Shown piece by piece: positions 3,081 to 53,587 of a DNA stretch of 64,000 nt (position 1 is its first letter; the number at the start of each line of letters is the position of its first letter). Made by a program: the position numbers and the translations under genes. This DNA comes from Catellatospora bangladeshensis (GTDB taxonomy: Bacteria > Actinomycetota > Actinomycetes > Mycobacteriales > Micromonosporaceae), in assembly GCF_016862575.1 (NCBI RefSeq), contig NZ_BONF01000019.1, forward strand, positions 62,001-126,000, read 5' to 3'. Under the pieces are notes generated by a model. That model saw only the letters and a program-made list of their open reading frames with translations, was not told the origin of the DNA and ran no database searches.

Positions 3081-3184
3081 CCGCCCAAGATCGCGACGAT
3101 CTTGCGTGAACTGTTAGGGATATGTCCGAAAGGGGCGTGTCGCACCCACAGTTCACGCAAGATCGTCGTGGTGTTGGGCGGGCG
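3081..3184. repeat. Long hairpin repeat, GATCTTGC family, full copy
   Basis: A perfect 21-bp inverted repeat (3094-3114 against 3148-3168) flanks a 33-nt centre. Outside it the arms continue imperfectly as CCGCCCAA (3081-3088) and TTGGGCGG. It has no T-run. Bases 3135-3165 recur almost exactly at 21621-21651, so this is a dispersed element rather than only a terminator. It lies between two genes on the same strand. Confidence 0.85.
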
Positions 3185-21488: not shown

Positions 21489-21555
21489 CGAGATCGCGCC
21501 TTCGTGTCATGATCTGCGGTTCTACCGCACCTTTCGACACGAGATAGCGATCATC
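21489..21555. repeat. 67-nt structured element, copy 1
   Basis: Outer arms 21489-21508 and 21536-21555, a 6x6-nt internal loop, and an inner stem TGCGGT (21515-21520) / ACCGCA (21524-21529) with a 3-nt loop. Length and all spacings equal those of the copy at 38053-38119, and the inner stem differs by a compensatory C-G for T-A change. The outer arm is less perfect here (13 of 20 paired) than in copy 2. Confidence 0.8.
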
Positions 21556-21620: not shown

Positions 21621-21651
21621 GCGTGTCGCACCCACAGTTCGCGCAAGATCG
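21621..21651. repeat. Solo arm of the GATCTTGC-family repeat
   Basis: These 31 bases match 3135-3165 with a single difference (G for A at 21641). The partner arm of the long hairpin is absent, so this copy looks decayed or half-sized. Confidence 0.75.
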
Positions 21652-25218: not shown

Positions 25219-25585
25219 GGTTCCTCCAGCGGGAGCGGGGGACGACGAGACCCGTCGTCGGCGCGGCAGCCCGCGGAGCGGCGTGCCTGGACCTGGACGG
25301 ACTTCGTCGCGCTACGTCCGGTGATCAGCCCGGCACGCCGTTGCCTGGCGAGTGGAACCTTATGATTCTTCTTTTTGAATGTCTAGATGTTAAGGCGAGA
25401 TTGACACAACTTCTGATCGCGCCAGCAAAAGTTCTGGGCACCCGGCCCGCTGAGCCCGCCGCGCGGCCCGCCCCACCAGGCCGTCGGCAGTTTCGGGGAA
25501 ACTGCAGGCACCGGGGGCGCGATCGCTGCAGTTTCCCCGAAACTGCAGGGCAGGTCCGGGCCCGCGGGGCGTGCGGCGAGCGCGG
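25219..25585. other. Intergenic region with promoter tract and 64-nt hairpin repeat
   Basis: The gap between two minus-strand genes has no supported gene. An A/T-rich stretch at about 25360-25430, striking in this background, is the likely promoter of the large secreted protein gene, with a leader of well over 100 nt. The repeat at 25485-25548 lies nearer the channel gene end and may double as its terminator. Confidence 0.6.
25485..25548. repeat. 64-nt CAGTTTCGGGGAAACTG repeat, copy 1
   Basis: A 23-bp inverted repeat (25485-25507 against 25526-25548, 22 of 23 paired) with an 18-nt spacer. The second copy at 53463-53526 has the same 23-18-23 geometry and an unrelated spacer. Each arm is itself partly palindromic (CAGTTTCGGGGAAACTG). 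Confidence 0.85.
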
Positions 25586-35524: not shown

Positions 35525-37956
35525 GCGCCCTGACCGGGGTCTCCCCCGCCGCTGAGCGGCAGGAGCGCGCCCGGCCGCCGGAGCCGCGCCGCGGCCGGGG
35601 CACGGGCGCCGTGCTCGCGGCCGCCCGCGCGGCGGTGGCCCGGCGGCGGCTGCAGACGGTGATCGTCGGGATCGTCGTGCTGCTGTCGGCCGCCACCTCC
35701 GTGCTCGGTGTCGGCCTGCTCGTCGCCTCGCACGGGCCGTTCGACGACGCGTTCGCCGAGGCACAGGGCGCCCACGTCGCCGCCACCGTCAGCGCCGAGG
35801 TGCCCGCCGGGCAACTCGCGGCGACCGCCACGGCCACCGGCGTCGCTGCCGCGGCAGGCCCGTTCGACCAGGTCACGGCGCCCATCACGGGCATGTTCGG
35901 GCCGCCCGGCCTGGAGTTCGTCATCGTGGGACGCGGCGAGCAGCACGGCCCCGTGGACCGGCTCACGCTCACCGACGGCACCTGGCTCACCGGCCCCGGG
36001 CAGATCGTGGTGACCCGGCGCATCTCCGGGCCGCGCACCAGAGTCGGCACCACGCTCACCATCAACGGGGTGTCGCTGCGGGTGGTCGGCGTCGCCGCGT
36101 CGGTCACCGGCACCGCCGACGGGTGGGTCCACCCCACCCAGACCGACGTGCTCACCGGCGAGAACACCGCCCGGCAGATGCTCTACCGCTTCACGAGCCC
36201 CGGCGCCGACGACGCCGCGCTGCGCGCCGCCCTCACCACCGCCACCAGCGCCCTGCCCCGGGGCGCGGTCACCGGCGCGACCACGTACGTGACCATCCGG
36301 CTGGCGCTCAACCGGTCCATCGCGGCGATCGCGCCGTTCGTGGTGGCGTTCGCGATCCTCGGCATCGTGCTGTCCGTGCTGATCACGGTCAACGTCGTCA
36401 ACGGCGCGGTCGTCTCCGGCTTCCGCACCATCGGCATCCTCAAGACCCTCGGCTTCACCCCCGGGCAGGTCGTCGCCGTGTACGTCGCGCAGGTGCTCGT
36501 CCCGGCGCTGGCCGGCGCGGCCCTCGGCGTGGTGCTCGGCGCGCTGCTGGCGGTGCCGATGCTCGCGCAGACCGACGACGCGTACGGCATCCCCGGCGAC
36601 GGCGCGGGCGTGCCGCTCTGGGTGATCGGGCTGGTGCTGGCCGCCGCTCCGCTGCTGGTCGCGCTCGCCGCGCTCGGGCCGGCGCTGCGGGCCGGGCGGC
36701 TGGCCGCCAACCAGGCGATCAGCGTGGGCCGCGCGCCGCGTACCGGCCGGGGCTTCCGGGCCCGCCGCGCACTGACCGCATCGGCGCTGCCCCGCCCGGT
36801 CGCCCTCGGCCTCGGCATGCCGCTGGCCCGGCCGTCACGGGCCCTGGCGACCGTGGTCGCGCTGCTGCTCGGCGCGATCACCCTGGTCTTCTCCAGCGGC
36901 CTATCCGCGTCGATGATCGAGGTCAACACCGCGTTCAGCCGCCTCGACGCGGTCGCGGTCGAGGTGAACGTCATAGTGCCCGACGCGTTCGGCAACGCTC
37001 CGCTGCCGCCACCGGGACCGGGCGGGGCTCCCCGTGCCCCGATCGACCCGCCCGACCCCGCAGACGTCGCCGCGGCCGTGGCCGCCATGCCCGGCACCGC
37101 GCACTCGGTGCTGCGCGAGGACGCCGAGATCCGCGTCGCGGGCATCAGCGGGGAGGTCCGCCTCTTCGGGTACGCCGGAGACGCGAGCTGGGCCGGGCAC
37201 CGCCTCGCCGCCGGGCGCTGGTACTCGGGTGCGGGCGAGGTCGTGCTCTCGTCGTACACGCTGCGGCAGACCGGGCTCGTGCTCGGCGACCGGGTCACCC
37301 TGCCCGGCGGGCGCGTGGTCACCGTCGTCGGCGAGGTCATCAACGGCAGCGACCAGTACACGATGATCGGCGACGAGTCGCTGGTGGAACAGGCGTTCTC
37401 CGCGCGGGTCGAGGTCGGCCTCACGGCGGGCGCCGACTCCGCCGCGTACACGAAGGCCTTGCAGGCGAAGTATCCGGAGGAGACGTCCGGGGTGTACGTC
37501 GAGGACCGGGCCGTCAGCGAGGAGAGCGAGACGTTCGTGATCATCCAGGCGCTGATCGTGATGCTCACCTTGCTGCTCAGCGTCGTCGCGGCGCTGGGGG
37601 TGCTCAACACGGTGGTGCTGACCACCCGGGAGCGGATCCACGAGATCGGCGTGCTGAAGGCGCTGGGCATGACGCCGCGGCAGACCCGGATCATGGTGGT
37701 CACGTCGATGGTGGGCCTGGGACTGCTGGCGGGCGTGATCGCCGTGCCGCTGGGAGTCGCGCTGCACCACGCGGTCATCCCGGTGATGGGTGAGGGCGCG
37801 TCCACCGCCCTGCCGCAGTCCGCCATGGAGGTGTACGGGATCGGCGAGCTGGTGCTGCTCGGCGGCGCGGGCATCGTGCTCGCGGTGCTCGGCGCGCTGC
37901 TCCCGGCGGGCTGGGCGGCCCGCACCCGCGTCGCCACGGCCCTGCGCGCGGAGTAG
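35521..37956 (+). CDS. FtsX-like ABC transporter permease
   Basis: An 811-residue membrane protein with two FtsX halves. The first helix is near residues 40-62 (VIVGIVVLLSAATSVLGVGL), followed by a large extracytoplasmic domain and a cluster of three helices (about 265-400: IAPFVVAFAILGIVLSVLIT; RTIGILKTLGFTPGQVVAVY). A second helix at about 440-465, a second external domain, and a final cluster (about 680-805: NTVVLTTRERIHEIGVLKAL) complete the duplicated plan. This is the long actinobacterial MacB/LolCE-like permease. With the ATPase it likely extrudes or senses lipids or peptides at the envelope. Confidence 0.92.
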   Translation: MSALTGVSPAAERQERARPPEPRRGRGTGAVLAAARAAVARRRLQTVIVGIVVLLSAATSVLGVGLLVASHGPFDDAFAEAQGAHVAATVSAEVPAGQLAATATATGVAAAAGPFDQVTAPITGMFGPPGLEFVIVGRGEQHGPVDRLTLTDGTWLTGPGQIVVTRRISGPRTRVGTTLTINGVSLRVVGVAASVTGTADGWVHPTQTDVLTGENTARQMLYRFTSPGADDAALRAALTTATSALPRGAVTGATTYVTIRLALNRSIAAIAPFVVAFAILGIVLSVLITVNVVNGAVVSGFRTIGILKTLGFTPGQVVAVYVAQVLVPALAGAALGVVLGALLAVPMLAQTDDAYGIPGDGAGVPLWVIGLVLAAAPLLVALAALGPALRAGRLAANQAISVGRAPRTGRGFRARRALTASALPRPVALGLGMPLARPSRALATVVALLLGAITLVFSSGLSASMIEVNTAFSRLDAVAVEVNVIVPDAFGNAPLPPPGPGGAPRAPIDPPDPADVAAAVAAMPGTAHSVLREDAEIRVAGISGEVRLFGYAGDASWAGHRLAAGRWYSGAGEVVLSSYTLRQTGLVLGDRVTLPGGRVVTVVGEVINGSDQYTMIGDESLVEQAFSARVEVGLTAGADSAAYTKALQAKYPEETSGVYVEDRAVSEESETFVIIQALIVMLTLLLSVVAALGVLNTVVLTTRERIHEIGVLKALGMTPRQTRIMVVTSMVGLGLLAGVIAVPLGVALHHAVIPVMGEGASTALPQSAMEVYGIGELVLLGGAGIVLAVLGALLPAGWAARTRVATALRAE

Positions 37957-38249
37957 CCGCCGGCACGCCTGTGCCATGACCGAAGCTCTCGCCACGCTGC
38001 CGGAGCTTCGGTCATGGCGCGCCGCACGGCCACCTCCCCTGACTCCCGCTGGGAAGATCACCGTTTCGTGTCGTTATGTGTGGTGAGACCACAGGTTCTG
38101 ACACGAGACAGCGATCTTCAGGCGTCGGGCGGCCGCAGGCTGCCGGGCCAGCGCGCGATTGCCCGGCGGGGGCGATCTCCGAGGGTGTTCCGAGGTGATT
38201 CTCGTTGAACGTTCAGCGAACGGCTCTGGTCTCGGTTCGGTAACACCCC
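37957..38249. other. Intergenic region with structured repeat
   Basis: A 305-bp gap (to 38261) between two plus-strand genes. Contents: a GACCGAAGCTC...GAGCTTCGGTC-type hairpin right after the permease stop (around 37979-38014) which may end transcription, the 67-nt structured element (38053-38119), and the protease promoter. No coding frame is supported. Confidence 0.65.
38053..38119. repeat. 67-nt structured element, copy 2
   Basis: Outer arms GAAGATCACCGTTTCGTGTC (38053-38072) and 38100-38119 pair at 17 of 20 positions. A 6x6 internal loop separates them from the inner stem TGTGGT (38079-38084) / ACCACA (38088-38093) with a 3-nt loop. Geometry is identical to 21489-21555. Confidence 0.85.
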
Positions 38250-38255
38250 TAGGCT
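38250..38255 (+). promoter_or_regulatory. -10 box TAGGCT placed for a leaderless mRNA
   Basis: TAGGCT ends 6 nt before the ATG at 38262 of the protease gene, with no ribosome site between. A GTG at 38259 overlaps but fits the spacing less well. Confidence 0.45.
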
Positions 38256-38261
38256 CAGGTG

Positions 38262-39095
38262 ATGCCGGGTCGCTTCAGGGTCGTGCCGACCGAGCCCGCC
38301 GCGCCGCCCGCTCCCCCGGCGGCCGAGGGCAGTCCAGCGGGTCCGCCTGCGCGCGTACGCCATCGGGTCCTGATCGCGGCGCTGGCCGCGGCGGTGCTGG
38401 CGCTGACCGCGGTGGTCGCCTACCAGTGGGGCTCCTCCTCGTCCCCGGAGACGGCCACCGTGGCGCCGGCCCCGTCGCCGTCGGCGGACGCGCCGCTGAC
38501 CGTCGGCGAGATCTACCAGACCCTTGCCCCGTCCGTGGTGTTCATCAAGGCGGCGGGCAAGGCGGGCACCGCGACCGGCAGCGGCGTGGTCGCCAACGCG
38601 GACGGGTCGGTGCTGACCGCGCTGCACGTGGTGCGCGGCGCGACCGCCATCGAGCTGGCCTTCGCGGACGGCACCACCGCGAAGGCCGCCATCGCCGCGC
38701 AGGACCCGGCGCACGACATCGCCGTGCTGACCCCGGCGCAGCTGCCGTCGGTGCTGGTCCCGGCGGTGATGGGCGGCGGCCCGGCGATCGGCGACGCGGT
38801 GGTCGCCATCGGCAACCCGCTCGGCCTGGTCCAGTCGACCACCTCGGGGGTCGTCTCCGGCCTGGACCGGTCCATCGTGGCCAAGGAGGCGGGCGAACTG
38901 GACGGGCTGATCCAGTTCGACGCCGCGGTCAACCCGGGCAGCTCGGGCGGGCCGCTGGTCAACGACCGGGGGCAGACCGTCGGCATCGTGGTCGCCCTGG
39001 CCAACCCGACGGAGGCGGGCACCTTCATCGGTGTCGGCTTCGCCGTGCCGATCGGCACCGCGCTGGGCGCCGACGGCCCGCGCCCGCAGCTGTGA
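38262..39095 (+). CDS. Membrane-anchored trypsin-like serine protease (S1C)
   Basis: A 277-residue protease. A Pro-rich cytoplasmic start leads to one membrane helix (VLIAALAAAVLALTAVVAYQ, about 36-55), so the catalytic domain is outside the membrane. The chymotrypsin triad is intact: His in LTALHVVRG, Asp in AHDIAVLTP, Ser in NPGSSGGPLV. It lacks a PDZ domain, ending soon after the barrel (FAVPIGTALGADG), so it is a short DegS/HtrA-like protease. It heads a co-directional run with MoxR, DUF58 and two VWA genes (33 bp to the next start), suggesting a joint envelope function. Confidence 0.9.
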   Translation: MPGRFRVVPTEPAAPPAPPAAEGSPAGPPARVRHRVLIAALAAAVLALTAVVAYQWGSSSSPETATVAPAPSPSADAPLTVGEIYQTLAPSVVFIKAAGKAGTATGSGVVANADGSVLTALHVVRGATAIELAFADGTTAKAAIAAQDPAHDIAVLTPAQLPSVLVPAVMGGGPAIGDAVVAIGNPLGLVQSTTSGVVSGLDRSIVAKEAGELDGLIQFDAAVNPGSSGGPLVNDRGQTVGIVVALANPTEAGTFIGVGFAVPIGTALGADGPRPQL

Positions 39096-43060: not shown

Positions 43061-43792
43061 ATGGGGCCCGTGTGGGACCTGACGATCAATCTGCTGGCGA
43101 GCGCCATCGCCGGCGCGGCGGTGTGGCTGACCCAGTACGCGCTGCGCCGGCGGCGGCTGCACCGGATGCGCACGTTCTTCGGGCTGGCCGCGGAGGCGCC
43201 GTGCGTGTTCTTCGTGTCGCGGCACGCGTCGTCGCCGCACCCGAACAGCGTGCACCGGGCGGACATGGGTGCGCTGCTGGAGCTGGCGGTCATCGCGCGT
43301 GACTGCGGCAGCCGCCCGCAGATCGCGTCGTTCGAGGACCGGCCGCTGGGCCTGGGCGAGCTGACCGAGTTCAGCGTGGGCGGGCCGACGTTCAACCCGC
43401 GCACCGAGAGCCACCTGCGGCGGATGCTGCCGGGCGTGGACGTCAGCGGGACCAGCCCGAGACCGCTCACGTTCACCATCGGCGGCCAGGTGTACGAGTG
43501 CAAGCCGGGGCGCGTCGAGTACGTGCTGGTGGCTCGGGTGTTCGGGCCGAACGGCGGGCGGCCGGTGTTCGTGCTGTGCGGGCAGACCGCGCTGTCGAAC
43601 CAGGCCGGGGCACGGCACCTGCGGGCGGAGTACGCGCAGCTCGGCAAGACCTACGGCGACCGCCCGTTCAGCCTGATGCTGCGGGTGGTGGACACCGACG
43701 CGTACGGCCCCGCCGTCGTCGACCAGATCACCGACGTCACCGCCGACGCCACCACTCCCCTGCCGCAGCCCCAGGAGCCCGCCGCCGCTTGA
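43061..43792 (+). CDS. Conserved membrane-anchored protein, unknown function
   Basis: A 243-residue protein. One N-terminal membrane helix (LTINLLASAIAGAAVWLTQY) is followed by RRRRLHR, giving a cytosolic domain of about 200 residues with ordered alpha/beta character: APCVFFVSRHASSPHPNSVH, LLELAVIARDCG, YVLVARVF and RPVFVLCGQTALSNQAGARH. The VF-Gly-Gln-Thr/Ala pattern suggests a Rossmann-like or nucleoside-deoxyribosyltransferase-like fold, but I cannot assign a family. The start is ATG 43061 (GTG 43070 is possible). It lies 53 bp after the VWA gene on the same strand, so it may belong to the MoxR run. Its stop codon lies within a long hairpin repeat. Confidence 0.75.
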   Translation: MGPVWDLTINLLASAIAGAAVWLTQYALRRRRLHRMRTFFGLAAEAPCVFFVSRHASSPHPNSVHRADMGALLELAVIARDCGSRPQIASFEDRPLGLGELTEFSVGGPTFNPRTESHLRRMLPGVDVSGTSPRPLTFTIGGQVYECKPGRVEYVLVARVFGPNGGRPVFVLCGQTALSNQAGARHLRAEYAQLGKTYGDRPFSLMLRVVDTDAYGPAVVDQITDVTADATTPLPQPQEPAAA

Positions 43793-43868
43793 TCATCCGA
43801 CTTGCCTGGCACCTGGGCGTACCCGCACTCATGATTCGCCCACCTGCCAGGCAAGTTGGACGATCAAG
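43788..43868. repeat. Long hairpin with 32-bp arms
   Basis: Arms 43788-43819 and 43837-43868 pair at 28 of 32 positions around a 17-nt spacer. The left arm contains the TGA stop (43790-43792) of the preceding gene. It sits between convergent genes, followed by a separate terminator. Confidence 0.85.
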
Positions 43869-43905
43869 CCGTCCCCGGCCACGATCTCGGGGTAGTGGGT
43901 CGGGT

Positions 43906-53437: not shown

Positions 53438-53462
53438 ACGCCCCGCCGCCCGGCCGGGTGGG

Positions 53463-53526
53463 CTGCAGTTTCAGGGAAACCGCAGCCCACCCGGCTGCGT
53501 TGACTGCGGTTTCCCCGAAACTGCAG
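53463..53526. repeat. 64-nt CAGTTTCGGGGAAACTG repeat, copy 2
   Basis: A 23-bp inverted repeat (53463-53485 against 53504-53526; 22 of 23 paired) with an 18-nt spacer, in the gap between the convergent reductase and hydrolase genes. Relative to copy 1 a paired position has changed from A-T to G-C, keeping the stem. Confidence 0.85.
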
Positions 53527-53587
53527 CCCGTCCGGCGGGGGGGACGTGCGGGTTCCCGGTGGGTGCGGATCTCGGTGGGGTACGGGG

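Follow-up and report, generated by a model that had tools for sequence, protein, structure and literature searches.

Some short dyad-symmetric sequences, among them the matS/MatP and Noc sites, are scattered over the chromosome and read by one protein. Others are dispersed repeats. REPINs are built of two inverted REPs that form a hairpin around a diverse spacer and are copied by RAYTs, and compensatory changes have been described as common in them (PMC3116915, PMC8049555). Tagged REPs carry GTAG or CGTC at their end, the CGTC families being without a dedicated transposase, and the main text of the report describing them makes no mention of actinobacteria, Micromonospora, Frankia or Streptomyces (PMC3733652). 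In Escherichia coli, BIMEs are intergenic palindromic repeats that have been proposed to act as domain barriers (PMC6907758). A literature search at the level of listings found no published description of the 67-bp family considered here.

In the window, which is the whole stretch of 64,000 nucleotides that was analysed, a first-pass annotation had pointed to two 67-nt elements, and both are present where it placed them and with the inner stems it gave, TGCGGT/ACCGCA and TGTGGT/ACCACA, the differing pair lying at element columns 29 and 39. The features used below are the following.

38053..38119, no strand assigned: copy A, 67-bp dyad-symmetric element with its centre at 38086, lying between the 3' end of an FtsX-like permease gene and a trypsin-like protease gene
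38056..38059, plus strand: left outer GATC block of copy A (columns 4-7); conservation is 99-100% in 126 copies picked by columns 14-20 only
38066..38072, plus strand: left core TCGTGTC of copy A (columns 14-20); the core varies among species
38073..38099, no strand assigned: 27-nt inner part of copy A, with the degenerate motif RRAANSTGNGGYC in each half and one central base between
38100..38106, minus strand: right core of copy A (columns 48-54), GACACGA on the plus strand
38113..38116, minus strand: right outer GATC block of copy A (columns 61-64), conservation again taken over 126 copies
21489..21555, no strand assigned: copy B, 67-bp dyad-symmetric element with its centre at 21522
21502..21508, plus strand: left core TCGTGTC of copy B
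21536..21542, minus strand: right core of copy B, GACACGA on the plus strand

The core pattern TCGTGTC N{16,40} GACACGA matches twice in the window against 0.01 expected, and a profile scan found no third copy there. In the genome of the window (G000; 8.83 Mb in 115 contigs) the same pattern has 226 matches and, as a control, none when read backwards. The inner length is exactly 27 nt in 220 of these 226, with A or T at the centre in 126 and G or C in 94; individually listed sites cover 50 of the 226 core-pattern matches and 194 in the runs with the fixed 27 nt. The identical fold geometry that had been claimed for copies A and B thus holds as far as the layout is concerned, which is the same in both predictions (z-scores of -4.8 to -7.3 over both strands) and fixed throughout the family, but the outer arms are imperfect and those of copy B pair as blocks of 6 and 8 bp. 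Separate from copy A and directly upstream of it, a 16-bp inverted repeat (GCCATGACCGAAGCTC) lies at 37973-38018 of the window, and a related sequence adjoins the counterpart of copy A in a second Catellatospora genome, G007.

When a half-site profile was run over 1.22 Mb around known copies, it recovered 140 full elements, of which 126 carry the strict core and only 14 depart from it, together with 12 leftover halves above 8 bits; the reversed control gave nothing. Several of the leftover halves stand beside full sites, and none of the 12 belongs to a far-apart pair bracketing a gene. A narrow pattern run over named genomes matched five stretches, all within four Catellatospora species, and viral contigs held no exact match. 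A looser, genus-wide pattern (GATC N10 GTC N27 GAC N10 GATC) was present in all 11 Catellatospora genomes, with 265 sites in G000, 253 in G007, 203 in G001, 181 in G008, 146 in G009, 118 in G006, 57 in G002, 52 in G004, 40 in G010, 35 in G003 and 19 in G005. The 239 other Micromonosporaceae genomes searched with it had 0-2 matches each, and those listed, for 12 genomes, bore by eye no resemblance to the 67-bp element. The search for further copies that the first-pass annotation had proposed therefore yielded hundreds in G000 and 19-265 in each genome of the genus, and since the constant geometry is genuine across so many copies, its suggestion of a dispersed element or a protein-binding site was a good guess. 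Among the matches listed, six G000 elements lie 46-248 bp from a contig start (contigs C9, C12, C40, C48, C49 and C57), where the assembly seems to break at them. On the 8.9-Mb contig C1 of G002, 48 of 56 sites fall within about 1.1-5.9 Mb.

Other palindromes are dispersed in G000 as well. Window positions 43787-43869 hold a member of a second family (GATC-NNN-CGACTTGCCWGGCA...) with a directional centre; in 1.63 Mb of G000 its 41 half matches represent 25 distinct copies, the GATC-to-GATC length being 75 bp for 40 of the 41, and in the G000 stretches examined no copy lies within 400 bp of a 67-mer. A third family, with GATCTTGCGYGAACTGTGGGTGCGACACGCC arms, is represented at 3081-3181 and by a minus-strand match near 21640, and has 33 half matches in the same 1.63 Mb. 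Inverted repeats built on GCAGTTTC..GAAACTGC, with 15 matches in that sample, occur at 25487-25546 and 53439-53550.

Each half-site of the 67-bp element reads approximately SAWGATCGCNGTY-TCGTGTC-RRAANSTGNGGYC over 33 bp, and two such halves in inverted orientation flank a single central base. Column statistics rest on the 126 strict copies, whose selection fixes columns 14-20 but not columns 4-7; columns 4-8 are conserved in this set, columns 10, 21, 22, 25, 26 and 29 are free, and both element ends read SAWGATCGC, which is part of the arm. The core itself differs among species. TCGTGTC is found in most copies of G000 and G007, the core of G001 is mainly TCGGGTC with TGCGGTC, TCCGGTC and others besides, that of G009 is mainly TGCGGTC, and cores in G002 are mixed; 3' of the same permease gene, different cores stand in G000, G001 and G002. 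In 146 strict copies of 162, columns within a half are interdependent, mostly neighbours such as 25-26, 12-13 and 21-22, which can mean either a dinucleotide read-out or half-site lineages. Because of this dependence, copies are clearly closer to one another than column-shuffled copies are; the distances between copies resemble those obtained by re-pairing halves at random, apart from slightly more cases at 7 differences or fewer.

The first-pass annotation had argued from the changed inner pair that covariation signals selection on a folded RNA or single-stranded DNA. That argument does not survive comparison with the family. Columns 29 and 39 form a Watson-Crick pair in 24% of the 126 copies against 30% expected for independent halves, column 29 is among the most variable of all, and over columns 28-33 the left and right halves match at a level near or below chance (z -2.3, -1.8 and +0.9 in G000, G001 and G009), so that covariation of the inner stem was rejected. 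A wider test for covarying pairs, as the annotation had also proposed, was run on G000, on the first 100 listed of the 203 sites in G001 and on 74 of the 146 in G009 (part of the rows listed); the sites listed for G002 (57 of 57) and for G008 (part of 181) stood outside this test. It did show left-right matching beyond chance, in outer columns, though not for the pair that had been cited. Columns 8-13 matched with z 5.4, 5.7 and 4.3 and columns 21-24 with z 3.5, 5.0 and 2.1 in the same three genomes, columns 25-27 with z 3.2 in G001, and the core halves with z 10.6 in G001, where they are identical in 54 of 100 elements against 20 expected, and z 3.1 in G009.

Comparison with orthologous elements in G007 indicates how this matching behaves over time. 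In the 15 closest orthologue pairs we counted 19 outer changes that make or break a pair and no compensatory ones; in 24 pairs the counts were 45 against 2, and in all 33, which include doubtful orthologues, 70 against 8. In addition, for 81 elements between co-directional genes, G.U was not favoured over A.C on the sense strand (90 against 116, columns 1-27). The matching is real but lies in the outer part, and one-sided changes in orthologues together with the lack of a wobble bias argue against pairing as its cause. Selection on a folded RNA or single strand, as had been proposed, finds no support here; it appears instead to act on the sequence and spacing of a duplex site, and the left-right matching is most readily understood as inherited from perfect palindromes.

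Of the 40 elements in the G007 stretches, which were picked for holding elements, 36 make up the orthologue set (33 of them one-to-one), and as selection was by the TCGTGTC pattern, columns 14-20 are biased and columns 4-7 are not. The 36 comparisons show differences at 40 of 1152 positions in conserved columns (3.5%), at 202 of 684 in variable columns (29.5%) and at 16.7% of positions in the other columns. Core column pairs changed in none of 165 cases in the 15 closest pairs, against 25 of 135 for outer column pairs, and in 5 of 363 when all 33 pairs were taken. In the orthologues of these two genomes, bases of the recognition type were hence conserved and the bases between them free. Several element positions are common to different species, and between G000 and G007 copies have been gained or lost, with single/double differences and with some single copies that resemble hybrids of two neighbours; the ends of insertions at empty sites are not readable because the intergenic DNA is too diverged. 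Recent copies were also looked for among 162 elements and this idea was dropped, the closest being a tandem pair that differs at 2 positions, followed by ten pairs with 5-7 differences. A pattern search found no element at the permease locus in seven other species. The G007 orthologue of copy A is split by an insert of about 1.5 kb flanked by an 11-bp direct repeat (GTGTCAAAACC); we considered this insert as an autonomous version of the family and rejected it, as it looks like a separate insertion sequence with its own 11-bp repeat.

Where elements have a close neighbour, the distance between them is quantised. In the G000 stretches, spacings below 300 bp (n=30) are 94 (six), 95, 104 (six), 105 (five), 106 (two), 108, 110, 115 (three), 116, 125, 126, 157 and 159 bp, with one further at 370 bp, and 26 of the 30 fall at 94-95, 104-106, 115-116 or 125-126 bp, which are whole helical turns. 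The phasing statistic R(10.5) was 0.82 for these 30, a value that none of 20000 jittered sets reached; the pairs are not all independent because triplets occur, and with each distinct spacing counted once R was 0.67 (n=13). The G007 stretches add spacings of 105 (six), 106 and 113 bp, and the G007 site list also holds 279 and 439 bp. In G009 and in G008, for which the profile of G009 was used, the spacings under 170 bp comprise 71, 83, 93, 94, 105, 116 (three), 117, 126, 136 and 145 (two), with R 0.78 (n=13) in this range and 0.45 (n=22) up to 300 bp. Spacings of 108 and 110 bp in G000, 113, 279 and 439 bp in G007 and 71 and 145 bp in G008/G009 fit the phasing poorly, and 107 of the 162 copies in G000 lack a neighbour within 170 bp. 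The scores of pair members and singles in G000 do not differ (p 0.33), and the idea that pair members score lower was rejected accordingly. Judged by eye, the spacers between neighbours look unrelated except within some triplets. Spacings of whole turns between elements whose spacers vary freely in sequence point to a duplex-bound protein, be it in a complex that serves the host or in a transposition complex.

Copies favour the 3' ends of genes and shun divergent gaps. With genes called by a purpose-written ORF/GC3 script, 120 classifiable clusters in the G000 stretches comprise 45 in convergent, 65 in co-directional and 10 in divergent gaps, against 152, 365 and 158 background gaps of at least 67 bp in the same stretches (p 7e-6). 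These counts exclude 6 clusters that fall within called ORFs and 4 at edges, and where stretches overlap, their background gaps stay unmerged. Tested by gap length, the placement bias had p 6e-5. Among the 65 co-directional clusters, 51 lie closer to the upstream stop, the medians being 52 and 118 bp. Seventeen of 20 flanking proteins scanned had a Pfam match, one of them below the cut-off, and three had none; no common theme was seen among the 20 and none was a transposase.

The failed covariation, the one-sided changes and the lack of a wobble bias mean that the elements behave as a dyad-symmetric duplex site conserved in sequence. The site occurs throughout the genus, and its neighbours are phased with the helix. 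We would explain them as follows. The element would be a recognition site on duplex DNA, made of two 33-bp half-sites around the single central base, and since the conserved blocks of a half lie about one helical turn apart, the two halves could be read from the same side of the DNA by a protein that is dimeric or has several domains. Complexes on neighbouring elements may touch, and such contact would account for the whole-turn distance between centres. The family would have spread by copying of a palindrome, after which selection would keep the recognised bases while other positions drift, as the orthologues of one species pair do, and the change of core among species looks as if a putative protein had changed together with its sites. 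A role as boundary, as roadblock or in organising the chromosome is suggested by where the copies lie, at the 3' ends of genes and in convergent gaps; this is the most speculative step. Taken as a whole, with phased docking, copying, selection and a role at gene ends, we consider this explanation slightly more probable than its contrary. The wider picture, in which a genus-specific, chromosome-wide system has a putative protein docking on the same face at gene-end 67-bp sites and coevolving with their cores across species, is tentative and on balance rather unlikely. Gain and loss of copies would fit a mobile repeat just as well and the outer halves match beyond chance, both of which count against the duplex-site explanation, as does the room that column dependence within halves leaves for half-site lineages.

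The main rival of the duplex-site explanation is a mobile palindrome of the REPIN or MITE kind, non-autonomous and without host function, whose ends are read by a transposase, perhaps as a single-stranded hairpin. Hundreds of intergenic copies with two inverted conserved ends and a fixed length would be expected of it, and the three observations just named fit it too. So does the coexisting 75-bp family, which as a second fixed-length, GATC-ended palindrome in G000 is reminiscent of the tagged REP superfamilies (PMC3733652) and leaves room for a shared mobile origin. On the other hand, a Y1 transposase of the RAYT class (PF01797, Y1_Tnp) had no match in 5 of the 11 genus genomes, including G000 and G006, none of the 9 Y1_Tnp loci in the other six carries the GATC-ended element pattern, and association with a RAYT was rejected on these grounds; nor do the scanned flanking proteins offer a transposase. 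Distances that follow re-paired halves with close copies only slightly in excess, and a core kept in orthologues while other columns drift, likewise speak against it, and mobility alone does not explain the whole-turn spacing unless a bound transposase directs insertion. We regard this rival as a serious possibility, albeit one that falls well short of probable.

Two further readings make pairing itself the function. A cruciform or single-stranded hairpin bound by a structure-specific protein, with selection on the pairing of the outer stem (columns 4-24), would account for matching outer halves in G000, G001 and G009 and above all for the G001 core; we nevertheless hold it to be very unlikely, given that outer changes in orthologues are mostly one-sided and that the matching is explicable by descent from perfect palindromes. 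Moreover, cruciform extrusion must begin at the centre, which is the worst-paired part of the element. A structured RNA, which had been put forward earlier, or a bidirectional hairpin terminator at gene 3' ends would suit the strong predicted hairpins and the excess of elements in convergent gaps and close to stop codons. The inner stem is not maintained, though, the transcribed orientation shows no G.U preference, and the closest orthologues hold no compensatory outer change; there is also no T-run (at least 6 T occur in 2 of 324 flanks, each 15 nt long), no terminator-like site at 37900-38300, and no Rfam match either there or in the window. We consider an RNA or terminator most improbable.

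If a protein binds these elements, they provide up to 265 natural replicates of one site per genome, in 11 species and with different cores, and so a test bed for the coevolution of protein and site and for helical cooperativity of chromosomal complexes. Should they prove purely mobile, the genome holds a REPIN-like family but no detected RAYT, and the question becomes what copies the palindromes.

Compared with known systems, the 67-bp sites are like the matS/MatP or Noc sites in being dyad-symmetric and dispersed over the chromosome, with one putative reader protein; unlike these, they are much longer, more numerous and partial to gene ends, and have no known protein. With BIMEs (PMC6907758) they share the character of intergenic palindromic repeats, but their spacing is quantised by helical turns. 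With the GTAG- and CGTC-tagged REPs they share the character of short dispersed palindromes that often have a neighbour, but those are 20-40 bp long with an unpaired tag (PMC3733652), whereas the elements here measure 67 bp, lack an unpaired GTAG/CGTC end tag and carry GATC inside the arm, within the SAWGATCGC end. The nearest known kind is the REP/REPIN, which the family resembles in layout while three tests that define that kind failed. Like REPINs (PMC3116915, PMC8049555), it has inverted conserved ends around a diverse spacer whose length is constant, is present between genes in hundreds of copies and persists for long; unlike them, it shows no compensatory changes in the closest orthologues, and it has in addition a conserved motif near the centre and whole-turn spacing of neighbours. 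On the best reading, the 67-bp elements are REP-like palindromes that are kept as candidate binding sites of a putative protein.
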